Origin: Toxonevra muliebris
Taxonomy: Eukaryota > Arthropoda > Insecta > Diptera > Pallopteridae
Assembly (NCBI GenBank): GCA_963691655.1
Contig: OY829330.1
Location: 4,430,793 to 4,494,792 of the forward strand
Direction of reading: 5' to 3'
Length of the DNA: 64,000 nt
Shown here: positions 14,242 through 57,589 of the stretch, piece by piece
Layout of the letters: each line of letters opens with the position of its first letter
Position numbering within the stretch: the stretch's first letter is position 1
Translations under genes and position numbers: made by a program
The notes under the pieces: generated by a model
Seen by the model: the letters and a program-made list of their open reading frames with translations, nothing else
Told to the model about the DNA's origin: nothing
Databases searched by the model: none

Positions 14242-14505
14242 TGGTTATATTGGTAGTATGCTCGGCAACACCACTCACTCTCACACAGAACACGGTATGC
14301 TCGGTGTATTGTACACCGAGCACGCCGGGTATTCAGGGTGGCAATGAGGAATATTACAAAACAGTATCATTACATACAAAATAGTATTAAGCAAACGAGT
14401 ATATTTTGACAAAAAGCTACTCTGTAACGAGCTGAATGTAACCACTTCGACCGAGCACTGGAGAAAATGTTTTGTGTTCGTCAAACACCGAGCACCAATA
14501 TAACC
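14242..14505. mobile_element. 264-bp inverted-repeat element with central hairpin
   Basis: The left end GGTTATATTGGT followed by GCTCGG is inverted at the right end (ACCGAGCACCAATATAACC). Inside, TGCTCGGTGTA and TACACCGAGCA form a perfect hairpin (14298-14322, 3-nt loop). A chance 136-codon ORF on the minus strand overlaps it and is not called. Confidence 0.65.
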
Positions 14506-15400
14506 TCTAGCGTCAAAAATATGTAAAGAAGAACAAAACAAAAGCAATTGGATTTGGTTTTTGTTTTTACAATTCATATTTATGTTAAAATTATTTACTT
14601 CGTTTAACTGTGCAGTATCATCAAAAGAATCAAGAAACAAAGCAAAACTCGAAAAAAATACATATGTTTTCGTACTAAAACTTGGCAGCACTTAACTCTT
14701 TTTGAAAAAATATGGTAATGTTTCCCCTCTCACAAGAGAGAAAACATTATGAAGTTGAGAGAATTTTAATAGAATCTAATGTAGCGTCATTGAGGCGGCA
14801 GCCAGCCTCTGAATTTTTTCTCATAAAAGTTCATAAAATTCTGTGTTTGTTGTTGAAGCTGAGGTCGGCGGTTACCCGCTGTCAAAATTAAAATGCAAAT
14901 CTAGGATGAAATGGCTCAGAAATGGGACGGCGGTGTTTTTACCGCCGACGGCAGCTGTTCATGCACCGTTGTCCGCTTTACCGTCGTACGACAAAATTGT
15001 GTTTTAAGCTAGATATGCCGAAAACTCAAAAATATAATAAAAATCGACGCATTGATGAGATTTTGACAGTTTCCTTCTTAACTTTTTATCGCTATTTTTT
15101 TAACAAACTTACATTCCCAACAAACACAAAAAAAAATTCTCTAACCTTTGAGAAATTCGTAATTTTCAAGTTGAGAATGAGTTGAGATATATTTCAGAAA
15201 ATATTTACATATTTTATTATTGCAACACTGCTATTGTGATTGTGAATAACATGTTTTTCGACAAAAGTGAAGTGAAAAAGGGAAGAAAATGAAGTGAAAA
15301 TAATTTTTGCGAAAAACTTTAATTTTAAAAGTAAAAAATTAAAAAGTGAAATAAGGCAGGAAGTGGACTTTTTGTCGGAGCGCTCAAAGCTGCCGAAACT
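14506..15400. other. Spacer, GC-richer between 14770 and 15000
   Basis: The first 30 bases (CCTCTAGCGTCAAAAATATG) recur at ~45673 beside the hammerhead repeat. 14770-15000 contains CGGCGG-type words but no protein match. Confidence 0.35.
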
Positions 15401-17110
15401 TTGATGCTAGAGCCTTCCACTTCAACTGCCAACCTAAATTGTTTCATCGCAGCGTAGCTAGTGGGTTGCCAGGACAGTGGCGAATGAAGATGCGATTAGG
15501 TTTGCTATTGCTTCTTTTGACAGCTTCAAATCGCCGGGTCCGGATGGTATACTCCCAGTTGCTTTGAAAGAGGGTATGGTGCAATTGCTACCGGTTTTGA
15601 AGAAGATCTTCATCTCCAGCTTGGCTCTCGCTCACATACCTCAACAATGGAGGTTGGTAAAAGTTGTTTTTTGGAAAGGACAACTATACAAATTACAAAA
15701 GCATTGGATCCGGTTCTTGTTAACTGGATTCGCTCAATGCTGTCACACAGACTTTTGATGGTTCAAGCTGATTGTGGTCAATCTGTGACTTTCGGCGTGA
15801 ATAGAGGAAGCCCAAAGGGGGCGTACTCTCTCCACTGCTTTGGTGCCTGCTGGTTGACTCTCAGCTTGTTTCCCTAAATGAGTCGGGTATCTACACACAG
15901 GCCTATGCCGAAGACGTTGCCTGCTTAATCACGGGCTATCGGTTAACCGTCTTAAAGCTGGTGTTATCCTTTTCATCAGGAGAAGGAAAATTGATGGTCA
16001 CGTTTCACCAATACTAAGAGGAATCACTATTCAGCTATCCCAAGAAGTGAAATATCTAGGAGTCATTCTAGATACCAAAATTCTTTGGCGTTCTCATGTT
16101 GACCTAAAGGTATCCAAGGCATTGGCAGCTTTTTGTCAATGTAAGGCTATTTTTGGCAAAACATGGGGCTTATCACCTTATAAAGTCTTATGGCTTTATA
16201 AGGCTATGATTCGACCCATCATCACCTATGCATCCATAGTCTGGTGGAGCAGCCTTAATGTTGACAGCGTTAGGGTAGCTCTTGCCAGACTTCAAAGGAC
16301 TGTGGCCATTTTTTGTACGGGAGCTTTTCCTACAACACCTGGCCTATCCTTGCATTGCTCAACTTACCACCTCCTCATATTTTTGCTAAAGGAGAGGCTG
16401 TCAAAGCCATATGTAGGCTTAAACGCGATGGGTATTGGTATGACACTTGCTGGGATATTGGTGACATTGTTGAAGGTACTGATATGGACCTAACAGTTCT
16501 ATCAATGCCAACAATTCCAGTTTTAAAGCAGTGCTATACAATAAAAATTCCAGAGGCCCAAACTTGGCTTTTGCCAGGACCTGGGCCGGGAGTTGATTGT
16601 AAGCGTATTTTCACTGATGGCTGCAGAACAGAATTCGGTTCGGGTTCTAAGGTCTTTATTGAAAATGATGGAGTGCACCTTTACTTCTCCCTTGGGTTGT
16701 ATACTTCTGTTTTTCAAGCAGAAATTTTTGCAATCATTAAAGCAATGGACCATGTTATTGATAATGGTTGGAGAGAAACGAGTATTTGTGTATTTAGTGA
16801 CAGTCAAGCTGCGCTTAAATCCTTGCTTAATCCTCTAACTACGTCTAAACTGGTTATGCATTGTAAATCCAGGCTTGATTGTGTTGGAAAACAGAATAGT
16901 CTGCTGTTGATATAGGTTCCTGGACACTCAGGAATTTCAGGAAATTAATATGTTGACTTAGTGGCCAGAAAGGGTTCGGAAACTGGTTTCCTGGGCCCAG
17001 AACCTGTACTCTCTTTGTCGTCTACAGCCATCATGACCTCTCTAACACCGCAGGATCTGCTAAGATTTATTAATAAATCTGGTAGATTTAAAGAATAGCA
17101 AAAGGGAACA
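15400..17110 (+). pseudogene. I/LOA-type non-LTR retrotransposon copy 1 (RT and RNase H)
   Basis: The RT opens at about 15477 with SFDSFKSPGPDGILP. A deletion removes the middle fingers, then VNWIRSMLSHRLLMVQADCG and NRGSPKG follow. The catalytic box at 15901-15915 reads AYAEDVA, so the second aspartate of YADD is glutamate. The thumb (EVKYLGVILDTKILW) spans 16047-16300. RNase H follows with FTDGCRTEFGSG (about 16608), QAEIFAI, FSDSQAALKSL and VPGHSGISG (about 16918), an order that keeps the D-E-D-H set, although stops precede the histidine motif. ORF1 and the endonuclease are absent (5' truncated). At least three frame changes. RNase H places it with I/LOA-like clades. Confidence 0.85.
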
Positions 17111-17737
17111 CAGGATATAGTACAATGGACGTAAAACTGGTCTGAGTGCTGTATTCTTGAATACTTCTTTTGTCTGTTCCAACAAAAAAAAAAAAATTGT
17201 TTACTCTCAAGTGACTGAATTTGTTATTTTTTTAAAAGTTTTAATTTTACTATGTATAATTGAAGTGTTAAAGCAAAATACCATATGTGATATGAAATTG
17301 TTAAAATTTTAACTTGCTTTTGAAGTTGAAAAGCGAAGAAATAAAAAAAGTCATTTAAAATTTCCTTTTATTTTTTGTGTTTCAATTAAATAGAAATAAA
17401 TATGGCAATACAGTAAATTTCCTTTGGGATCAATTGGAGAATTACGTTAGAATTCAAGTTTTTTATTTATTTATTTTTATTTATTTGGTATCACAAATTA
17501 GTACAATAAGAAACTAGTCTTTTGCTGCACAACAATAGCAAGCAGTACAAACAAGTGGAAGAACTTAAAAATAAATTAAAATTTAACATTAAAATTAAAG
17601 TTAAAAATCACAAAGTCGAGAACTATAATTTTCTCAAGTTGATAACCATACAAAAAAAATGCCCTTTTTGTTGAGAATGCTATAGTACACCAATGGAGAT
17701 GCTATTGAGAATTAACGTTGGAGATTTGAGAAAGGTA
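17111..17737. other. AT-rich spacer with TTTA repeats
   Basis: A poly-A run at ~17183-17197 may be the retroelement tail, and (TTTA)n occurs at 17461-17490. No gene seen. Confidence 0.4.
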
Positions 17738-17771
17738 TTTGAGATCAACTTCACCTCAAGTTGATCTCAAA
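17738..17771. repeat. Perfect 14-bp inverted repeat (hairpin)
   Basis: TTTGAGATCAACTT and AAGTTGATCTCAAA surround a 6-nt loop (CACCTC). It is not followed by a T run in a coding context, so a terminator role is not implied. Confidence 0.8.
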
Positions 17772-17915
17772 CCTAAATGATTGTTGGGTTATTTGGAAAT
17801 TACAGTTTTTTGTAATATCAAAAACATTTAAAACACATAAATAATATATTTGGGTTTTTTGCATGGAGGTATTTCTTGCGGCTTTTTTGGATGAGCTAAT
17901 TTTTAACATCGTTGT

Positions 17916-18510
17916 CAGTGTTGCCAAAATGACGATTTGAACGTCATTTTGACGATTTTTGACCCAATGCATTTTTTTAAAGCACTAAGTCACCAAAGTG
18001 ACTTAATGCTTTGACGATTTTTGTTAAAAAATTACGATTTTTTAATTAAAAAACAAACAACATAAGAACTTTTTTGTTTTAAAATTTCTTCTGCCATTTT
18101 TATAAATACATGCGTGTGATACAATAAAGTATTTTGTGTGAGTTGCATTATTTTCGTACTTGGTACATCTTTGTTTTTTAAATATCCTCAACAATTAGAT
18201 ATTGAATTTAGGGAGCAACGACATATGAATGAAAGCTGAAGATTTTTGGAAAGCAATTTTCAACATAAAACTTGGTGATTCATCAAAAGCATTTCTAATA
18301 TTTTCAAAATTTTGTTTTAAAATTGATGTGTCTACCCGACTTTTCTGCAAACGTCGAAAGAATATTTTAAAAAGTCAATTATTTAAAACTAAATACAGAA
18401 ATCATTGATACAATAAGACTCTTGAAGAGATATTATTTGCACAAGGTTATTTTGCAACAAATGAATGTTTATGCTACAGCCTTAGTCCAAAACAAAATGA
18501 TGAAAAAATT
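17916..18510 (+). pseudogene. hAT element relic: 5' terminus and dimerisation-domain fragment
   Basis: CAGTGTTGCCAAAATGACGA at 17916 is a typical hAT-like terminus, followed by an internal inverted repeat AAGTCAC-CAAA-GTGACTT at about 17985-18005. From about 18220 the plus strand holds C-terminal transposase remnants: LPDFSANVERIF in one frame and TKYRNH, TLEEILFAQG in another, resembling the hAT dimerisation domain (LPHS..VERIFS...K). Stops and frameshifts interrupt it and the catalytic core is missing. The right terminus is not visible; the next retroelement starts at about 18550. Confidence 0.6.
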
Positions 18511-18553
18511 TCAATTCATTTTATATTCATAAGGATCTCATTGTACCAAGGTT

Positions 18554-20480
18554 ATGGGATATTTTCGCACTTGTCTAGCGACTGGATATGTCCCAAGGAG
18601 AGAGGCCAAAGTGGTCTTCCTTCCAAAACCAGGGAGAAAGGACTATATAGAGGCAAGGTCCTTTAGACCAATCAGTTTTACCTCTTTCCTTCTGAAAACG
18701 AAGGAGCGGGTAATGGTGGATAGTCTTGAGAGTACCTCGTTACTGTATAAGCTGCTGAGTAGATGCCAGCACGTTTATAGGGCTGGCAAATATACGGAGA
18801 CTGCCCTGCACGAATTAGTTAGTGTAGTGGAAAAGGAGCTATTTTGTGGAGGCATCGCAATGGCCACTTTCATAGACGTTGAAGGTGCTTTCGATAAAAG
18901 TAGCTTTGGTAGGCTACATCGAGCTCTGACCAAGCGTGGTGTCAATCCAATTATAACAACTTGGGTGGACAGCATGCTCAGGCAGAGGGCGGTTAATATG
19001 CAGCATGGTAGAGACAAAACTAGGGGTAGAGTTAGCAGGGGCTGTGCACAGGGAGGAGTGCTTCCACCCACCTTGTGGAGCATAACTCTAGACTCTTCTA
19101 GTAAGACTGAACCGGTCAGGTAAACTAACTTGGAACGATCATGTTAAGGACAAGATTCAGAAGGCTAAGAGGGTTTTGTTTCAGTGCAGACGAGTTTGTG
19201 GTCTCAAATGGGGTACATCTTTGGAGGCCTCAAAATGGGTCTACACTATGATGGTTAGATCTATCATTACGTATGCCTCGGTGATCTGGTGGCCGAAAGT
19301 CAACGAGATAACCATTAAAAGGATACTGGATAGGGTCCAACGGTTGGCGTGTATTGGCATAACTGGTGCAATGCGCACCATATATACGAGCGCGATGGAG
19401 GTGCGGATATGCTTGCTGCCACTGGATTTAGCAATAAAGAAAATGGCAGCAACTACAGCCCTTAAGATGCTGAAGAATGCCACATTGCATAATTCCACGC
19501 CACTGCTTGGACACATGCGAATCCTGGATATCTTATACAAAGATATTCAGGAGACGCGTATACCTATGGACGGCATGTAAAAAGTCAAAATAAATGAGAA
19601 ACGTTATAGGGCTCGGATAGCGGATGGAACCGTCAACGTGGAAGTTGAGGATAGCGATATCAGCATTTTCACTGATGGTCCTCTGCTGCAAGGTGGAGCT
19701 GGGGCAGGTATTTTTCCAGATGAGTCAAATTTCTCCTGTGTTCTACGGTTGGGAAAATATGTGTCCGTCCATCAGGCAGAGATGCTGGGTTTGGTGCATG
19801 CACTGGACCACCTTATTGAGAATCAGGTCAATGGCAAGATAATTATCATTGCCCTTGACAATCAGTCGGTGATTAAGTGCATGCAGCGGACAGATATAAC
19901 CTCTAGGTTGACCTTGGAATGTGTCTAAAAACTCAACGAGTGCGCTCGTGCAAACGAGCTTACTTTGATGTGGGTGAGGGGACATTCAGGCATAGCGCAA
20001 AATTAAACTGCTGATCTTTTGGCTAAAAAGAGCTCAGCATCGCTCAGCATTCATCGCCATTGGTGATGGATTGGCGGAAGGCCTGATAAGACAGTGGATA
20101 AAATCTGAACATTATAAAAGATGGAAAGAGGCTAGCCCGAAAGACTTTGAGCTGGCTAACAGCGCTGACCACGGGTCACGGTCCCTTCAGGTATCACCTC
20201 AAGAAGATGAAACTTGTTGAGGATGAAAACGGTGGCACACTTACTGTGCCAATGCCCAGCATTGGCGAGCAGAAGGTTGGCAATCTTGGGTCATCGATAC
20301 TTTGATGAATCTGAGATTGGCCACCTGGCCTATAAGGATATGCTCGCGTTGACGCAGGATGCCAATACTCGGAGCATGCTCGTTTACGAGTGGTAAGAGT
20401 AGAGGCATCAGGCGGTAGGGGACGAAAAGGGACCCAACTGGGTCTGATTCAGCTAATCCCCGAACTAATAATAATAATAT
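18554..20480 (+). pseudogene. I/LOA-type non-LTR retrotransposon copy 2 (RT and RNase H)
   Basis: The longest frame (18554-19123) reads GYVPRREAKVVFLPKPGRKD, FRPISFTSFLLKT, AGKYTETALHEL and FIDVEGAFDKSS (first catalytic aspartate, about 18870), then GCAQGGVLPPTLWSI. The block that should carry YADD is deleted. A thumb domain (19176-19580) leads to RNase H: FTDGPLLQGGAGAG (about 19668), HQAEMLGL, ALDNQSV and VRGHSGIAQN (about 19970). A C-terminal HLLCQCPALASRRLAILGH zinc-knuckle-like motif is near 20230. The copy ends in a (TAA)n tail at 20466-20479, typical of I-like elements. ORF1 and endonuclease are missing. Confidence 0.87.
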
Positions 20481-20780
20481 ATTCTTAATAATAAAAACTA
20501 ATATGTTAAAATAATACGGATTTTATAAAAAAAAACTATAAATAAATAAACATATTTAAGGGGGTCGAAAAGACAGAAATTTTTTTTTGTTTAAATGTTT
20601 TTTTTTTTTAATTCACAGTCGATTGAAAGTGCTTAAACTTTCAAACTCATTATTTTTAAAACCATGTTTTTGAAACTGGCGTGCACCAAAACTCAAAAAA
20701 TTCGTTATTTTTTTTTACAATTTTTAGGATTTTTTAAGTGCATTTTCTGGTAATACTGATCGTTGCTAACATGGCAGAGT
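20481..20780. other. AT-rich spacer
   Basis: Poly-T and poly-A tracts only. Confidence 0.45.
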
Positions 20781-21005
20781 TATACCAGGTGGCAGTGTGA
20801 CCAGGTAGGATGATTTATCGCCAATTAGGCGATAGTTTTGTAAAATTAAAAAAAGGACTATGGGCCTTTTTGGACTCTTATTCAAATTACTGTGGTGCTT
20901 TTAGGCGTTGCTTAAAATTATCTCTAGTTTAATTTTTTGTATGAAATTATTTACTAAATTTTTTGTATGTTTATTTCTGGAACATCCCTTTAAGTGCTTT
21001 ATATA
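20781..21005. repeat. Terminus of the CAGTGTGACCAGGT (hAT-like) family
   Basis: CAGTGTGACCAGGT at 20781 and the GGCGAT block after it match the right end of the element at 29559-32480. Positions 20860-21005 are an inverted match (about 80% by eye) to 31225-31365, sharing AGTAAATAA, CTAGAGATAATTTTA and GATGTTCCAGAAAT. It is a truncated copy. Confidence 0.7.
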
Positions 21006-21439
21006 TCCAACTCTATGAGTGAACACACACTTTTTTATATTGATAATAATATGCAACCCTGTTTATTCAAAAAAAAAAAACATCGCCCATGCACTATGGT
21101 CCAAAAACCGATTTTTTGGCATAACGTCAAGTTTTTTATGGTTTTATATTTTAAAACTGAATCGATTTTATGAAACCCAAGATAGACAAAAAATATATTG
21201 GATTGAATTTTATGGACAACACTTTATTTTTGGCTCACAATCAAAGTCAGCTAATTGAGTAGCAAGTTGACTTGACAAAAATTTGGGAAAAACATTGACT
21301 GCCTTTAAGCGTAAATATAGACATAAAGTTTAAATATGGAAAACATTGGTTAAGGTGGTTAATATTACTTTTTTCATAATTGTGTGTTGTTGTCCAATTA
21401 TGCAATGTTTTGTTCATGTGTAATTTTATATTTAACCTA
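21006..21439. other. AT-rich spacer
   Basis: Nothing recognised. Confidence 0.45.
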
Positions 21440-22560
21440 ACAACTGTGTTTGTGTTTTATGGAATATTACTTTTGTTGTGATGTTTTCTTGTCTTTTTGG
21501 CAGAACCTGCAAGTGTTATCCTGAATTCTTCATGTGCTCTCCCAGTTTACAGCGTGCTGAGAGAATGCCCATGACTATTCTAAGTTGGTCCTTCCTTAGC
21601 TTTAGACAAAGGGTCGCTCTTTTGGGGTCGAAGTTCCCAATAAGTAGCTTTGATTGCCTAAGCTTTGGGAGGAGTAGGATGACCTACTGCTCCATTCCTC
21701 GTCTTTTAGAATGCTTTTTATGGTTTGGAGTCCTAGGCCTACCATGGGTTCAGGGCCAATGCATATCTTGGCCGCTGCTTTCCTTGCCAGGCTGTCGGCT
21801 ATCTTATTACCATATATTCCTGTGTGTCCAGGTAACCAGAATAAGGTAATCTTATTTGTTTTGCCTAGCTTATTCAGGAGCTCCAGACATTTCCATACTT
21901 ATTTGTGGCTTTGCTGGTTATATTGTCTGCATGTTTTTTCCAGAGAAGTTTAGAGTCTAGTGTTATTCCTAGATATTTGACTTCCTGTGTAACAACGATT
22001 ACCGCTTCATTCAGCTTAATGGGCTTCATGAGCGGAAGTTTCCTTTTCCGAATGACTGGCACTAGGATGGACTTGGATGGATTTATGTTTAAACCCACTA
22101 ATTTGCACCACCCCTGCGTGAGGTTCAACCTCCTTTGAGATATGTCGTAGAGCACATCCTCATATTTCTCTTTAGCCGTAATGACAAAGTCATCGGCATA
22201 GCCTTGGCAGGTTATGCCATTGTCTGTTAGCATAGAGAGGAGTTCGTCAACCACTAGACTCCACAATAGTGGTGATATAACCCCTCCTTGTGGACACCCT
22301 TTAGTTGTTTGGAGTCTTATTGTGGATGATCGCACTTTGGTCTCCGCTGTCCTCGCCCTTGGCATTGCGCTAATCCAGCGGGACAACGTTGGTTCAACCC
22401 TTTATAGCCTCATGGGAGGTATTATCGAAAGCTCCTTCGATGTCCAGGAAAACGCATACTGCTGTTTCTTTGTTTTCAAGAGCGCCCTGGATATAATTAG
22501 TCAACTGATATAGGGCAGTCTCCGTGGATCTGCCTGTTCTGTATGCAGGTTGACATGCCC
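21440..22560 (-). pseudogene. I/LOA-type retrotransposon copy 3, 3' part (RT, thumb, RNase H end)
   Basis: This is the downstream half of the minus-strand element that begins near 26.9 kb. PAYRTGRSTETALYQL and FLDIEGAFDNTSHEAI (first catalytic aspartate) lie at 22560-22400. GCPQGGVISPLLWSLVVDEL and an intact GYADDFVI box follow at 22300-22190, then the thumb (EVKYLGITLDSKLLWKKH). At about 21880 the frame jumps to LPGHTGIYGNKIADSLARKA, the RNase H histidine end, so the D-E-D part of RNase H is deleted. A CRFC zinc-knuckle relic occurs near 21505. Frameshifts are present. The intact YADD sets this copy apart from copies 1 and 2. Confidence 0.87.
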
Positions 22561-23732
22561 AGTCGAAAACAAAGCACTCCAAAAGGCCTTTTAAAGTGCT
22601 TTGTGCAAAGCAAAAAGGTCTTTGCTTTACCACTACTCACCATTACGTTTTTTACATTGCATGTCCTAGGCGATCAGCACAAGAGCGCATAGTAGAATAA
22701 GAGCCATACAGCAGCAATAGCAGTGCTCTCTTTTCTTGCAGACCTATAATCTCTTTTACTCCATTTAACCTCCGCAGTAAGGCTAAGCAAAGCAATACAT
22801 TTTTCAAACGCAGCAAGCAGTGAGACAAAGCAAAGTACCGATAATACTAACAACAAATACGATGTTCGTATTATCATTCTCTTGCTCTGTTTCATAGCAA
22901 GCAGCGATTGAATACTGCTTTGCTTTTGCTTTATTGTGGAGTTTAAATGGAAGAAGAAATTTGTTTTGTTAAAATGAATTATGTACACAAAAATAATGTT
23001 TTATCATTACAAATTTTTATTTTCATTATTGTAATTAAAATATAAAAAAAAATTTTACAAATTAATATTATTAATACATAATACTTACAAAAAAAAGAGC
23101 ATTTTCAACTGCATTTCACAAGCTTTCTTCCACTTATTTTACACTTTCCACTTCTGTTTTTTCTTTTGTTACTAAACGCCTGAAGTGCCTGCTGCTGATA
23201 CAATCTGTAAAATAAAATTTTCTGTATTTTTTTATAAATTTAATAAATAAAAATGATTATTATACAAACCTTTATACACTCGCGCGCCATGTAACCGACA
23301 AGAAATTAAAACAAAAGAACGACATGCAGAAAACAAAACGAGTAACTGAAAAAGCATAATAACCTTACTTCTGCATTGGTGTCAATTTGGAGTTTAAAAA
23401 ATTTGTAAATATATAATGCATTGTACCAATATGAAACCAAACGCAATAAAATTTTAACGCAGAGATCGGGTTAACCGATTTGATACACAAATGTTGAATA
23501 CAGAGAGGCAATAATGCGATAATATGAGCATCAAACACGAAGTTTAACTTTTGATATTCGTATTATCGTTCTCTTGCATTGTTGCAGTGAAGCAGCAGCT
23601 GGCGAGCATAGTGTTTTTATTCAGTCTTCAACCAAAAGAGAAGATTTTATAAAAAACTGCTTCGGAATAAGGTATAATGGAGTGAAAAAAAGATCTTTTA
23701 TTTCACTCCTCTGCAAAGTACTTTCATTTTGT
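22561..23732. mobile_element. Insertion of about 1.1-1.2 kb in the minus-strand retroelement
   Basis: RT sequence stops near 23733 and resumes near 22560, so this block interrupts the frame. Each end carries a near-perfect palindrome: 22570-22603 (CAAAGCACT arms around AAAAGGCCTTTT) and 23679-23709 (GGAGTGAAA arms around AAAAGATCTTTT). TTCGTATTATC plus TTCTCTTGC is repeated directly at ~22865 and ~23557. No ORF of note. No target duplication could be fixed, so limits are approximate. Confidence 0.6.
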
Positions 23733-25230
23733 CCGATTGGGTGGATACAGAGGCATCCTTTCCAGCGAATTTGCTCTTATATGCTTGTCAATCACTTTCT
23801 CCATTGTTTCAAGGACGAAGGAGGTTAGGCTGATAGGCCTAAATGATTTAGGTGAAGTGTAATCCTTCTTACCTATCTTGGGTATGAATGTCACTAGGGC
23901 TCTTCCCCCGCTTCCTGGGATGAACTCCGTAGCTAGGCTACTTCTTGTTTCTTTCCCTCTTTGCAGAAGGGCAGGTATAATGCCATCTGCACCTGGCGAC
24001 TTATATGGCTGGAATGTGCTAATAGCCCATGATAGCCGGGCTACTGAGCAAATTCTCGATGCTATCTTCCAGTCTCCTAGATTAGTTCTATGTCCTTCTG
24101 GGAGTATCCTTTCACCCGTAGCAATTGCTCCGGGAAAATGTGTACTCAGAAGTGTTTTGCTCTTTGTTCTTCGTTGGCGGTGTAGCTACCATCTGGTAGT
24201 TTCAACGCCATCATAGTCTCCACCCTTCCTTTTGCTAATGCTTTATGAATCCTAGCTGCCGCAGGGGTTTCAACTATTTCCTCACATAATTTCCTGAAGT
24301 TGGCTCTTTTTGCCCTCCTTATTTCCTTGTTGTACTCTGTTAGCACTCTGGAGTATTCCTGCCACTCACCCGTACGCTTTGCCCTGGTAAAGAGTTTTCG
24401 CGTATTGGATCTTAGTTTAGACAGTGTCGGGCTCCACCATGTGCCAGAGTCTTTGGTACCTTGGTGTTTTGATCTTTTGTTGACTTGGCAGCTTGAGTGA
24501 TAAGCCTCCAAGACTGCCTCGTTTGCTTTCTTTACTGTGCTTTCTAGCTCTGAGTAGTTTTTGATCCTACTCTTCACTTCGATAGTCTGCAGATTCACTG
24601 ATAGCTTTCTGGTGAATTCTTCCCAGTTTGTTTTCCGTGGGTTTCTCGAAGGAGCTACTGCAACAGTCTCTCCCTCGAGGCCAAATACTATTATCCTATG
24701 ATCAGATAATGATCTTCTTCCCTAGTTTTTGTTACGAAGGTAGGGGTAGTTCCTACGATGTAAAATTCTAGGTCATTACTTATTAAAAATTCTAAAAGGT
24801 ACTCACCCCTAGTGTTTGTGTCACTGCTCCCCCACCAGATGTTGTGCGCGATGGCATCACAGCCTATGAGGAGGGGCAGGGCGTGTTTCCTGCAGTGATC
24901 CACTAGTCGATGCCAGCACTATTGTTCGGTGCTCCCCGTTGATGTTGATGGGAGTCTCAACCGCAACCAGGTCCCGCGTCATGAATTCTGAAATACAAAC
25001 ATAATTAGTACTTTTGCCTAAAAATAAAAAATAAAAGCAAGGGGAATTTCGTGCCTTAGGTCCCATATTACCTTTGTATTTTTATCTTGCAGGCCTCTTA
25101 CCTGCCTCTTATACGTCCAGGGCTCCTGGACCAGCGCTGCCCAAAGGTGTTCTGAGGTGAACCTTCTTGCTATCACAGCTGATGCTGCTTTAGCATGCTG
25201 AATTTTGATTTTGTTGTTGCTGGCCATTTT
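23733..25230 (-). pseudogene. I/LOA-type retrotransposon copy 3, ORF2 5' part (endonuclease, linker, RT start)
   Basis: On the minus strand the endonuclease begins near 25227 (HAKAASAVIARRFTSEHLWA) and continues with a GCDA...WGSSDTNTRGE block near 24850 and GTTPTFVTKTREE near 24720, the exonuclease-endonuclease-phosphatase fold that nicks target DNA. The linker (24598-24146) includes TWWSPTLSKLRSNTRKLFTR. RT motifs follow: PYKSPGADGIIPALLQRGKE near 24000, IPKIGKKDY and FRPISLTSFVLETMEKVID near 23840, stopping at the insertion. Frameshifts break it into pieces. In an active element ORF2 performs target-primed reverse transcription. Confidence 0.85.
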
Positions 25231-39044: not shown

Positions 39045-39590
39045 TTAAAAGATTTGAATTTCTTTGTTGTGCAAAAAGTTCCGGGTATTCCTTTTAATGG
39101 ACCCCATCAAACTTTGAACATCCGCTCTGGATACTCTTGCGGCTATTTGGTTCCATTTTAGTAACATTGAATTCACATTTTTGACAATACCTGCATTTTT
39201 CTTCAACTTATATTTTGTAATAGCCCAGTATTTTTCGATCGGTAGAAGCTGGAGGCAATTGGGTGGATTCATATATTTGGGCACTACATCTACTTTATTT
39301 GCCTGATACCAACCCATGGTTTTCTTAGAGTAGTGGCAACTGGCTAAATCAGGCCAAAACTTCACTGGCGAATGGTGGTGACGAACAAATGGCAATAGTC
39401 GTTTCGAAAGGCACTCTTTGATGTAAATATCAGACGTCATAGAAGAGGATGTCACAAATGCCCTGGATTTGAGACCACAACTGCAAATAGCCTGAAACAC
39501 CATTGCTTTCTTTGCAAATTTATCCATTTTTATGTACTTGAATTTTGAGGGTACATTACCACGATTCGTTTCACTAAAAGTTAATTTACC
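39045..39590 (-). pseudogene. Tc1-like DD37E transposase, 5' truncated
   Basis: A 160-codon minus-strand ORF starts at 39527, and its frame extends upstream to about 39585 (LTFSETNRGNVPSKFKYIK). It contains KKAMVFQAICSCGLKSRAFV, then FWPDLASCHYSKKTM (second catalytic D, about 39350) and NCLQLLPIEKYWAI (E, about 39230). There are 37 residues between D and E, as in the ITmD37E subfamily described in mosquitoes. Family copies continue upstream with a DDESYFTFS-like first-aspartate motif; here the sequence breaks just before it. The C-terminus (SLMGSIKRNTRNFLHNKEI) is intact. Longest uninterrupted transposase frame in the window, so this copy may be comparatively young. Confidence 0.85.
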
Positions 39591-39599
39591 TGTTCAAAT

Positions 39600-45670: not shown

Positions 45671-46150
45671 GTTAACCTCTAGCGTCAAAAATATGTAGAA
45701 GAAAAAAAATGTGATGACTACATATATACGTTCCTTAAGCCTGTTATACATTCAGTCAAGACTTTGAAAAATTAACGCTTAGGTTTAATTTTCATAGTCT
45801 ACTAAAAATAAAATAAATTGATTAAATGGGGCCTGATTTAGAAAAATGACAATTAGAATCATTTTTCTACAAACACACTCATGTACTAGACTTTGAAATA
45901 ACGAACTGTTATGCAGACTAGTGACAATGAGGTTCAGTGAAGATATTTGGAATCAAATCTGCAATTCTGGGTTACGATTTCAAATATTAGTAGCTTATAT
46001 AGGATATTGAAAGATTAAGAACTATCACTAAGATCACTGATGAGGAATCGTGGCGGATTCCGAAACGGCCGTCTGATTTGCCAGTCTCTGTATACACTGT
46101 TGTTGTGATGACTACATATATACGTTCCTTTGGCCTGTTACCCATTACCT
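45671..46150 (+). repeat. Repeat containing a hammerhead ribozyme, with 45-bp direct repeats
   Basis: A segment starting GTGATGACTACATATATACG occurs at 45711 and again at 46105, bracketing about 350 bp that include the ribozyme at 46031-46079. The left flank CCTCTAGCGTCAAAAATATG is shared with 14503-14530. A 10-bp hairpin (AGAAAAATGA/TCATTTTTCT) lies at 45840-45868. The arrangement may be a target duplication or a remnant of tandem or long terminal repeats. Confidence 0.6.
46031..46079 (+). ncRNA. Hammerhead ribozyme, copy A
   Basis: All core elements are present in order: CTGATGA at 46037-46043, a perfect 6-bp stem II (46044-46049 with 46056-46061, 6-nt loop), GAAA at 46062-46065, and GTC at 46071-46073, the predicted cleavage site. 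Stem I pairs 46031-46036 (AGATCA) with 46074-46079 (TGATTT; one G-T). Stem III is the self-complementary ACGGCCGT (46065-46072) with no loop, so cleavage in cis as a monomer is unlikely and a dimer is implied, as reported for hammerheads of Penelope-like elements and newt satellite RNA. The homologous copy at 57128 supports a repeat family. No Penelope RT is seen nearby. Confidence 0.85.
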
Positions 46151-46808
46151 GAAAAAAATATTATTAATATAAAAATTTCTAATTATGAACTTTTAATAGC
46201 TTTGAACATACTTGTAAGATTTAAAACGAAAAACGTGAAGCGCTTGCAATAGATAACACTATGCGACAAAAATTTGGGTGAAAAAAATCAACTAAACGTG
46301 ACTAGAAGATTTGGTAAGATTACGATGCCAGTAGTTGATCCTGAAAAGGGTTTTGAAAAGTTAGCTCCGGTTTAGGATTAATTGATGTTTAAAGTCGAAC
46401 CCTTTGGCGCTTCGTTATTTCCTCAAAATTCGATTTGTTTTGCTATTTTCGGTTCTTAAAATCACTTAGCACTCGCCAATCATCTTGTAATTTTGCACAC
46501 TTATTTTCAAAAGAAAGCAGTTTAAGAGTCTCTAACCAGAATTGGACAATTCAAAATGGCGGATCAATATGGCGAAATCTTACCAAATTTTCTAGTCACG
46601 TTTCGTTGATTTTTTTCACCCAAATTTTTGTCGCATAGTGTAATTGATGCATGAATATGAAGTTATTAAAAATTTTATTGCACTGCAAAATGATGTGCAC
46701 TGTTAAAATTTTCTCGATTTTATCTTGCAGTCACGTTTTTTTTTTTCGTTTTAAATCTTACAAGTATTTTCATTGCTAATAAAAATTTTCAATCATAAGT
46801 TTTCAGGA
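46149..46808. mobile_element. Outer MITE (about 275 bp without its insert), CCTGAAAA ends
   Basis: CCTGAAAA and ATACTTGTAAGATTTAAAAC with ACGAAAAA on the left (46149-46240) are inverted on the right (about 46730-46808). Interrupted by the element at 46257-46640. Confidence 0.7.
46257..46640. mobile_element. 384-bp MITE with ~65-bp TIRs, nested in another MITE
   Basis: CACTATGCGACAAAAATTTG begins a ~65-bp arm that is inverted at 46576-46640 with about three mismatches (GTGACTAGAA and TTTGGTAAGATT are in both arms). TAA flanks both ends. CACTATG starts recall Transib termini, but the flank does not show a 5-bp duplication. High arm identity suggests recent activity. Confidence 0.85.
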
Positions 46809-46990: not shown

Positions 46991-49299
46991 ATTGCAAAAG
47001 TTAGTTCTGGTGAAAATTTTAATACGTTACAATTAGACGTTGATTTAATCTCTAGCGCTATATGTAACTATATTTAAATTTGCTCCTTTGAGTGAAGTTT
47101 CTAGCGATCAGTTATATTTGATAATTTATTATGAATTTTAATGTATTTTTTGGTAATTTTTAAGGTTATTTTCAATAACTTTATTGATAATTTTTTTATT
47201 TTAACAAAATCTAAGCCCTGTTGATCAGTATCGAATATAAAATTTTTCTGTCAGAGTACTTAAAAGAAAAAAAAACATTCATCCATATAAATTGGTACTT
47301 TATAATAGTTAGATATGTGTGAGTTTTGATCTCTTACACTAAGGACAGGTTCACCGACTGAGTGCCGCACTCTCCTTTCGTTTTATATATGCGGTTTTTA
47401 TGTATCAAAAATAGTTGTGGAATATACTTATATATCAAAAATTGACGAATTGTGCAATATATCAAAAATGATTGTGGGATATTTTTGTTGTATTGAAAAA
47501 ATTGTGCACACTGCTGCCCTAAATTACACATAGTACAAAGTGTGTAATGCGTGAAGTATGTTACCACATCATATGAAGAGTGCAGAAGGGACTAATTTTT
47601 GTACCAATGTGACATATGCTTAAAAATTTTCAGGATAATTAACTGTTAGGAAGTAGATTAAAATTTAATTACAAGCCAATAAACCAAAAAACAGCCAGAA
47701 CGAGTAAAAATTAACTGTACGCACCAACGGGATAATTTTAAATTATATTATCTTTATATTATATTATTGCGTATTTCTATGTATGTAGACACGAAAAAAA
47801 GTTTTTTGGGATTTTTAATTTTTTGAGGTTAGGGACGACATGTAACATTTTCTGTGAAAAATAATATTACATTCATATACAGTGAAAAAAAATATATGAA
47901 AAAAGCTTTACCTTTTTTTTATGATGACTTGGGTAAGCGTACGCATGATAAAACTATTATTTTAAGGTTAGGTGCTAGACTTGCAGCCGCCATATTGGTC
48001 CGCCATCATGCAAAATCAAAAAAGGCCTTCTTGCATTCGAAACTAGAGATAATAAGCTTTCATTTGAGCCCAAACATGCCTTAAAATACCTTAACCAATT
48101 TTGGACAGGGGGGGGGGGGGGATCCCCCATTGACAGAGAATGTCCCATATATATATATATTTTTTTTAATGGTTCATTTCACGCGATGCGATGAACAGAA
48201 ATGGAGTTATCGCCATTTGAAAAAGGCAATAATCGGCGAATCACGTAAACTTTACCCATCAATATTTTCGAAAATATTTATCAAAAAAAAAAAAAAAAAG
48301 GCGTACTACAAGTACCCTTATTTTATATAGGAAACGCGTAAAAAATTTTGAAGCGAACCAAAAATGTTGACCAATAAAAGTGTTCGATTGTAAGAGAATG
48401 CCTCATATACGGAATGCAAGAAAATCGTAAAATAAGTTTTTAAAGGTGACGAGTCGTCAGTCATAAATACGTAGTCAGTCGGTATACTCATAGCTTCAAG
48501 TTTTTTATTTGCATAAATTTTTGTTTATTATGTCACTACTATTAATCAGTTGTGAGTAAAAGCAAACAGATAAAATGATTGCATGCATGAGGAATTTGCT
48601 TGTCGAGATAGAAAAATAAATGGACAATGACAGATGAGGATTTCCAACACTATAACATAGCTCAAGTTATAACTATATTTAACCCTCTAGCTCCAAATTG
48701 TTTACTGATCTAAAAAAATTAGTTAATTAAATATTAATTCTCGGTGTTAAAATCCGTTCTTAAAAAAAAAAAAAATTGGTATAGTTGTATGAAATGGGAA
48801 TTCGTTGATAAATGTTTTTTTTTTAACTCTTACAGCTCGGTAGGATATTTGATATTCCACCTAGATTATCATAAATTTTCCTATAATTCGGAAACATTCC
48901 GTTATCTGAAGATTCTCGTGAATTTGTTAATATTAATAAACAAATACGAAAAAAATTCACTTTTTGCGAGAAAAATTCACTATCTGAGAAAGTTTTCATC
49001 GTATTTATATGAAACTTGCTACATGCGGGTTTTTGGGATCACTGATTTCGAATTTGGTTCAACATAGATCCAAAACCAGCGATCCTAAAAACCCTTCCAT
49101 ACAAATTCCTATTGCAATCAGAGTTAATTTTATTAATTCGGTAGTGCTGCCACTTTCTGTATAATCATACCAAATATGTATAATTTCAAGAGGTTTCGTA
49201 TCTTTTTTGTATACATTTTTATTTGGCAGATTTTTTTATAATTTGATTTAAACCACTTTTGCATTATTATGTTTTGAATAAAAAAAACGGACCCTAACG
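46991..49299. other. AT-rich region with small tandem repeats and a G14 run
   Basis: About 47403-47510 holds 3-4 loose copies of an ATCAAAAATnGTTGTGGAATAT-like unit of about 30 bp. A run of 14 G lies at 48108-48121. No gene is recognised. Confidence 0.45.
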
Positions 49300-51189: not shown

Positions 51190-51490
51190 TTTCATAAAGT
51201 AGTAGAAATAATAGTAGAAAAAGGAATCAAAAAAAGTAGTGGAAAAATTAGTAGTAAAAACAGAAAATAGTATTAGAAATTGTTGTAAAAAAGTGGTAGA
51301 AATGGATTTAAAAAAGGAGTAGAAAATAGTAGAAGAAATAATAGTAAAAATAACTGTAGAAAAAACAGTAAAAATTAGTAGTAAATAGTAGTAGAAAATA
51401 GCAAGAAATTGTAGAAAAAATGTAGTAAGAAAGTAGTAATATACATAGTAGTGGATAACATTAGAAGAAAAAGTAGCAGAAAATAAGAAA
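51190..51490 (+). repeat. Purine-rich cryptic repeat, TAGTAGAAA type
   Basis: Loose iterations of TAGTAGAAAA, AATAGTAG and GTAGTAGAAA run for 300 bp, almost pure purine except T of TAG. Confidence 0.7.
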
Positions 51491-57127: not shown

Positions 57128-57177
57128 AGATCCACTGATGAGAAATCGTAGCAGATTCCGAAATGATCGTCTGATCT
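57128..57177 (+). ncRNA. Hammerhead ribozyme, copy B (degenerate)
   Basis: Core CTGATGA at 57135-57141, stem II 57142-57147 with 57154-57159 (one A-C mismatch, 6-nt loop), GAAA at 57160-57163, GTC at 57169-57171. Stem III is the loopless ATGATCGT (one T-G pair). Stem I pairs AGATC-A with TGATCT if one C is bulged. About 45 bp on and around the ribozyme match copy A, so they share descent. Confidence 0.75.
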
Positions 57178-57589
57178 GCTATTTCTATGACTTTTTGGTA
57201 TTCTTCTGACATTAATGTTCATTGGAAGTATGTTAATTTTAAATAATTAATCTTAAATATGAACAGCCGAATTCGTTTATAAATTTTTTCCAAACTAAAA
57301 TAATATAATTAATAGTTTAATTTTAGGTGCAATTTTCCACATAAATCAATAAACTTTCAATATCTCACAATTCAAACAACTTTGTGAAAATTGCAGAAAT
57401 CAGTTTTCTACTTATTGTTCAAGCTTTCCAAGCACACCCTTCATTTATTGTTATATAGAATTTAGTGTGGTTACTCTAAATCGGCACTGAACAGAAAATG
57501 TAATTTTTCCGGTAAAACTTATCGTAAAGCAATATGTTTATTATCGAAATATTTGTAATTAAGTGTAGTCTATAAAAATAAAGAAATGA

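Follow-up and report, generated by a model that had tools for sequence, protein, structure and literature searches.

Architecture of the hammerhead

The window analysed here, a stretch of 64,000 nucleotides from the genome of the fly Toxonevra muliebris (contig OY829330.1, assembly GCA_963691655.1), carries a hammerhead ribozyme motif at 46031..46079 of the forward strand (+). This motif is referred to as HHR1, and its elements follow one another in the type I order. Stem I pairs AGATCA (46031-46036) with TGATTT (46074-46079), all six pairs forming and one of them being G-U. The core CTGATGA (46037-46043) leads into stem II, whose strands GGAATC (46044-46049) and GATTCC (46056-46061) also form six pairs out of six, around the loop II sequence GTGGCG (46050-46055). 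Next come GAAA (46062-46065) and the 8-nt self-complementary stem III, ACGGCCGT (46065-46072), whose first A is common to GAAA. C17 lies at 46073, and cleavage is predicted between 46073 and 46074. Stems I, II and III count six, six and four pairs, respectively, the last two pairs of stem III forming only between two molecules. The first-pass annotation had placed a complete hammerhead here; every element was found at its position, the GTC cleavage site included, and the structure bears out the type I order. By structure HHR1 is a genuine type I hammerhead, intact at all core positions, and it is probably self-cleaving.

The pattern CTGATGA-N-CGAAA-N-TCTGA occurs twice in the window, against 0.00 occurrences expected from 100 shuffles. 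A strict descriptor run on both strands, with minimum lengths of 5 bp for stem I, 4 bp for stem II and 2 bp for stem III, matches the window once, at HHR1, versus one match in 1000 dinucleotide shuffles. A chance resemblance to a hammerhead is therefore a very improbable reading: although the score of HHR1 in the Rfam family RF00163 lies under the gathering threshold, it is countered by the existence of two copies, by that single strict match among 1000 shuffles, and by the complementary loops present in both copies.

A second copy

The second occurrence of the pattern, HHR2, occupies 57128..57177 (+), about 11 kb from HHR1 on the same strand, and it was found by pattern and alignment. This confirms that the hammerhead is repeated, as the first-pass annotation had supposed. 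The core positions listed for hammerheads in PMC3088659 (C3 U4 G5 A6 N7 G8 A9, G12 A13 A14 A15 and U16 H17) are complete in both copies, which also form the stem pairs next to the core. Within HHR2, stem III is ATGATCGT, palindromic with one U-G pair. Its pairing amounts to six pairs plus a bulged C in stem I, five of six in stem II, where there is an A-C mismatch, and four in stem III. Being decayed in this way, HHR2 fails the strict stem-length descriptor.

A comparison within the window gives 83% identity between HHR1 and HHR2 over 64 nt (E 1e-9). None of the 11 core columns differ, while differences are found in 8 of the 39 other hammerhead columns (one of these being the inserted C of HHR2) and in 15 of the 28 flanking columns; for the core against all other columns, the Fisher p is 0.028. 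A covariance model built from both copies finds only the HHR1 and HHR2 sites in the window, both of which match by construction. To judge by its sequence, HHR2 is a divergent and partly decayed copy.

Could the motif simply be a fossil, an isolated and inactive relic that an old repeat happens to have preserved and that has no role today? HHR2, with its stem II mismatch and stem I bulge, suits such a reading, and the same can be said of flanks that are not convincingly alignable between the copies, of an active monomer fold that is not favoured in HHR1, and of a window rich in repeats and broken mobile-element open reading frames (ORFs). However, the HHR1 core is intact and all of its stem pairs form, and the core shows 0 differences in 11 columns versus 15 in 28 for the flanks, which makes the fossil reading unlikely.

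Complementarity between loop II and the 3' side of stem I

Directly 3' of stem I in HHR1, GCCA (46080..46083, +) is the exact complement of the TGGC at 46051-46054 in loop II, so that UGGC and GCCA form the two sides of a predicted pseudoknot. In HHR2 the two sides are TAGC (57149..57152, +) in loop II and GCTA (57178..57181, +), a compensatory change with respect to HHR1: with UAGC/GCUA, four of four pairs are available in both copies, one pair having changed on both sides. Complements of loop II are found at 0.6% of window positions for HHR1 and 0.9% for HHR2. When the pseudoknot is included and stem III is counted as a dimer helix, the structure has 20 pairs, and 39 of the 40 cells (the two copies taken together) are paired. 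In two pairs both bases have changed: one of these pairs belongs to the pseudoknot, the other to the centre of stem III. Slid versions of the same structure are 18-45% paired.

This arrangement has parallels. Type III hammerheads of hepatitis delta virus (HDV)-like RNAs carry a YGGC sequence in loop II that pairs with GCCR at an internal loop of stem I, and similar pseudoknotted motifs are reported from termites and dipterans (PMC7936874). By one estimate about 40% of hammerheads have a pseudoknot of this sort, which has been demonstrated for all three types (PMC3088659). UGGC/GCCA in HHR1 fits the YGGC/GCCR signature; UAGC/GCUA in HHR2 is complementary but lies outside the consensus.

HHR1 might be akin, as a type I form, to the pseudoknotted HDV-like and dipteran hammerheads, with circular permutation of a shared ancestor giving rise to the two forms. 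It shares with the motifs of PMC7936874 the 6-bp stem II, the UGGC loop of the YGGC type and the GCCA beside stem I, and most of those motifs come from dipteran genomes, within a wider search of invertebrates. On the other hand, as described there, they are type III hammerheads in which stem I is closed, a first stem I measures 5 bp and an additional hairpin spans about 20 nt, whereas HHR1 has the type I order and a palindromic stem III. In both HHR1 and HHR2, CTGATGA precedes the cleavage site, contrary to a type III topology, and by reading no CTGATGA follows the HHR1 cleavage site as far as 46146. The signature may also be convergent, given the estimated 40% of known hammerheads that are pseudoknotted (PMC3088659); the HHR2 loops depart from it, and kinship is judged here from the published description. 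Such a relationship is quite unlikely, and it is compatible with the retrozyme-like interpretation presented below, the two not being exclusive. The YGGC/GCCR signature makes it possible to test for kinship between the hammerheads of animal repeats and the ribozymes carried by HDV-like circular RNAs.

A putative 394-nt carrier repeat

HHR1 sits within a putative 394-nt repeat unit (45710..46103, +), a candidate retrozyme-like monomer delimited by a direct repeat alone. The left 43-nt copy of this repeat (45710..45752, +) is the possible start of the unit; the right copy (46104..46146, +), 91% identical and 394 nt from the left one, may open a second, truncated unit. The 394-nt period contains the hammerhead once, its GC content is 33%, and no ORF of at least 80 aa overlaps 45710-46103. 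When folded as a linear molecule the unit is more stable than most shuffles (z -2.3; 1 of 100 equally stable). As a circle compared with windows of similar GC, 5 of 45 are as low in energy and 1 of 45 is as highly paired. A copy of about 1.1 units of a small RNA resembling a retrozyme would fit the direct repeat, but so would a simple duplication, which would leave an identical pattern.

The explanation we favour, and hold to be fairly probable, is that HHR1 is a pseudoknotted type I hammerhead whose carrier, a small interspersed repeat without coding capacity, acts like a metazoan retrozyme of the kind without long terminal repeats (non-LTR). For HHR1 we infer cleavage, pseudoknot formation, circularisation and mobility, as follows. 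The transcribed repeat RNA would fold into stems I and II, with the UGGC of the stem II loop pairing to the GCCA beside stem I. Self-cleavage after C46073 would then take place in a single molecule with a 2-bp stem III or, more readily, in a pair of copies joined by a common 8-bp stem III into a double hammerhead. Cleavage of a multimeric transcript would release a unit-length RNA of about 394 nt, to be ligated into a circle. A helper element would reverse-transcribe around this circle, and reinsertion would leave a little more than one unit, as observed at this locus.

Metazoan non-LTR retrozymes (Cervera and de la Pena, 2020; PMC7229834) resemble the locus in their type I hammerhead, in the possible 394-nt unit and in its GC of 33%: they are described as 170-400 nt long with GC below 50%, and insects are among the reported hosts. 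The putative unit is likewise low in GC (below 50%) and non-coding, and its agreement with a retrozyme unit of about 150-450 bp depends on the 394-nt repeat spacing of one copy. The contact between stems I and II is here a predicted Watson-Crick pseudoknot, unlike that of metazoan retrozymes as described. The hammerheads of Aedes aegypti repeats (Perreault et al., 2011; PMC3088659) are also alike, as they lie in an interspersed insect repeat, have a palindromic stem/loop III and were proposed to pair as dimers; they are likened to HHR1 by their published description. Type I hammerheads have thus already been reported in insect repeats, and the HHR1 motif, its palindromic stem III and its pseudoknot each have a published precedent in the sources cited. 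Most likely, the two copies are what is left of a small mobile repeat whose type has been described in many animals.

Results that speak against a retrozyme-like repeat

A number of results weigh against this interpretation. At gathering thresholds, Rfam matches no RNA family in the whole window. The top match of HHR1 in a search over 91 bases, RF00163 (Hammerhead_1), scores 23.8 bits (E 3.6e-4), short of the gathering score of 34. For HHR2, hammerhead families are absent from the families found at E up to 10, a list from which a single overlapping match of lower score, from a same clan, is omitted. Retrozymes are described as dimers or longer arrays (PMC7229834), whereas there is a single hammerhead per locus here: no tandem second hammerhead was found at the HHR1 locus, and the two sites of the window lie 11 kb apart. 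Because tandem copies are missing at the locus, the repeat is filed as retrozyme-like and not as a retrozyme. Past the 78 columns that align, no convincing alignment of the HHR1 and HHR2 flanks is obtained, and therefore HHR2 does not establish a common 394-nt unit. Shuffles aligned equally well in 7 of 200 cases upstream and 179 of 200 downstream; for the region downstream of HHR2 the figures were 8 of 200 with the whole unit and 11 of 200 with the unit minus its hammerhead end, and for the region upstream of HHR2, 46 of 200. One gapped local alignment in this comparison spans 45972 to 46160, but in view of the shuffle controls flank homology was deemed unconvincing. As a circle, the unit has a GC-corrected energy that is equally low in 41 of 200 control windows.

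Folding adds to these points, with energies that exclude the pseudoknot and tertiary contacts. Local folding energy is unremarkable (z -0.99 for 49 nt, -0.58 for 57 nt and +0.59 for 85 nt). The 49-nt HHR1 monomer has its minimum, -13.6 kcal/mol, in another fold; the hammerhead fold reaches -7.4 with a 2-bp stem III and -8.2 without stem III. With flanks the minimum is -17.4 versus -9.5 for the hammerhead fold. Neither the HHR2 homodimer nor the HHR1/HHR2 pair is predicted to fold as a double hammerhead. Covariation is drawn from two sequences, and 132 of 500 column shuffles reach it equally. When eight transitions are placed at random on HHR1 (200,000 placements), no more than one pair is broken in 13.6%, two or more double changes arise in 9.6%, and 4.0% combine both outcomes. 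Finally, the pseudoknot was searched for after PMC7936874 had suggested it, and these figures are uncorrected for that choice.

Monomer or dimer

When two HHR1 strands are co-folded, the minimum (-33.9 kcal/mol, compared with -13.6 for each monomer) is a double hammerhead with an 8-bp stem III, in which only the outermost pair of stem I is open. The earlier claim that catalysis would need a dimer was overstated, since a 2-bp stem III closed by a GGCC tetraloop is possible, but predicted folds do favour the dimer. Two pairs with a tetraloop have been likened to invertebrate hammerheads (Cervera and de la Pena, 2020; PMC7229834), and in that account most invertebrate retrozyme hammerheads cleave efficiently as monomers; those of amphibian retrozymes cleave better as dimers (PMC7229834, PMC7761336). 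A palindromic stem/loop III and a dimeric form have been proposed for Aedes and others, and two RNAs, from Aedes and Nematostella, were among the 4 of 18 without cleavage (PMC3088659). Dimeric cleavage of HHR1 is plausible on the basis of the modelled folds. As HHR1 is intact, with a loop complement and a perfect palindromic stem III, it would allow monomer and dimer cleavage to be compared on one natural sequence.

A more specific proposal is that the repeats form a small-retrozyme family whose hammerhead is built for dimers, its fully palindromic stem III being kept self-complementary by compensatory change and the whole locked by a Watson-Crick pseudoknot between loops I and II, like those of dipteran and HDV-like type III hammerheads. 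We regard this as quite doubtful. If true, the hammerhead would be a type I counterpart, through circular permutation, of the ribozymes found in infectious circular RNAs.

Position relative to Rfam family RF00163

In Rfam, RF00163 is matched over the 91 bases, but under its gathering score; at gathering thresholds nothing is reported window-wide. Over 1201 bases, with E values up to 5, the families listed include no hammerhead. On structural grounds HHR1 counts as type I, but with a score below the threshold it is not called a curated member of RF00163. It agrees with the family in element order, core, 6-bp stem I and palindromic loopless stem III; the two differ in the spacing between the printed ends of stem II, 12 bases in the model and 16 in HHR1. 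Stem III is self-complementary, just as the first-pass annotation claimed, but its lack of a loop does not hold as a special trait: the printed RF00163 consensus stem III, ACGcgCGU, is the same kind of loopless, self-complementary palindrome, so the feature is ordinary and was rejected as an unusual one. Matches to small nucleolar RNAs (snoRNAs) and other Rfam families under the gathering score were regarded as chance.

Relation to Penelope-like elements

The locus might alternatively be a degraded Penelope-like element, both copies being remnants of its pseudo-LTRs and the reverse transcriptase having decayed or lying outside the window. Hammerheads of Penelope-like elements do resemble HHR1 in that they have the type I order, lie in tandem or partial-tandem repeats and have been proposed to act as dimers (PMC7761336, PMC6155905, PMC11167929), and the direct repeats around HHR1 could be pseudo-LTR ends. 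They are, however, described as minimal, lacking helix III or loop-loop contacts (PMC7761336, PMC6155905), and the 8-nt stem III and complementary loops of HHR1 disagree with that form. The link to Penelope suggested by the first-pass annotation is not supported on this point, and for this reason HHR1 is not filed under Penelope. The same annotation saw no Penelope reverse transcriptase nearby and proposed a non-autonomous repeat, which agrees with the ORF scan: in the 10 scanned of the 27 ORFs of at least 80 aa at 43-64 kb, there is no reverse transcriptase or GIY-YIG match at E up to 0.1, only one weak and unrelated match (E 0.016). No GIY-YIG was found in the nine scanned of the ten ORFs of at least 150 aa in the whole window, and the window's two RVT_1 matches lie at 18.5-22.4 kb. 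Taken together, a Penelope origin appears rather unlikely, and the retrozyme-like repeat is retained as the better explanation.

Surroundings of the repeat and rest of the window

Right behind the second direct repeat there is a foldback element, or one resembling a miniature inverted-repeat transposable element (MITE), at 46172-46803. Its inverted arms are nested, one of 72 nt being 94% complementary and the other, of 62 nt, 82%. A second unit beyond this foldback was rejected, as its score of 35 compares with a shuffle mean of 39 and 153 of 200 shuffles equal it. A stretch of 36-38 nt, TAACCTCTAGCGTCAAAAATATGT..., is common to 14501-14538 and 45673-45708, the latter copy lying immediately 5' of the putative unit's left direct repeat; the match at 47050, CTCTAGCG, is shorter. 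As for RNA polymerase III (Pol III) boxes, the best A box and the best B box each have 3 mismatches out of 11.

Exact hammerhead patterns had no match in collections of viral contigs and genome contigs. A wider pattern matched three viral contigs; on inspection the matches lack stem I and form no more than three pairs in stem II, and they were put down to chance; the contigs have no Rfam match at gathering thresholds, a test that HHR1 fails too. Phage records gave three weak matches (E 0.5).

Neither host genes nor tRNA genes were recognised in the window, and the ORF at 42 kb has no protein database match. Other ORFs point to mobile elements. Broken retrotransposon-type ORFs extend over 15882-24721, with RVT_1 at 18533-19120 (+) and 21877-22401 (-) and a weak RNase H match in the ORF at 16274-16912 (+). 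The retrotransposon-like ORF at 24149-24721 has three protein matches, one of them from the weevil Sitophilus oryzae at 46% identity. A transposase-like ORF at 39048-39593 (-) has a weak DDE_3 match and 78 database relatives, the best with 62% identity over 97% of its length. Finally, a degenerate 12-nt tandem array, AGTAGTAGAAAT, covers 51198-51482 with about 24 copies and 65% matches.
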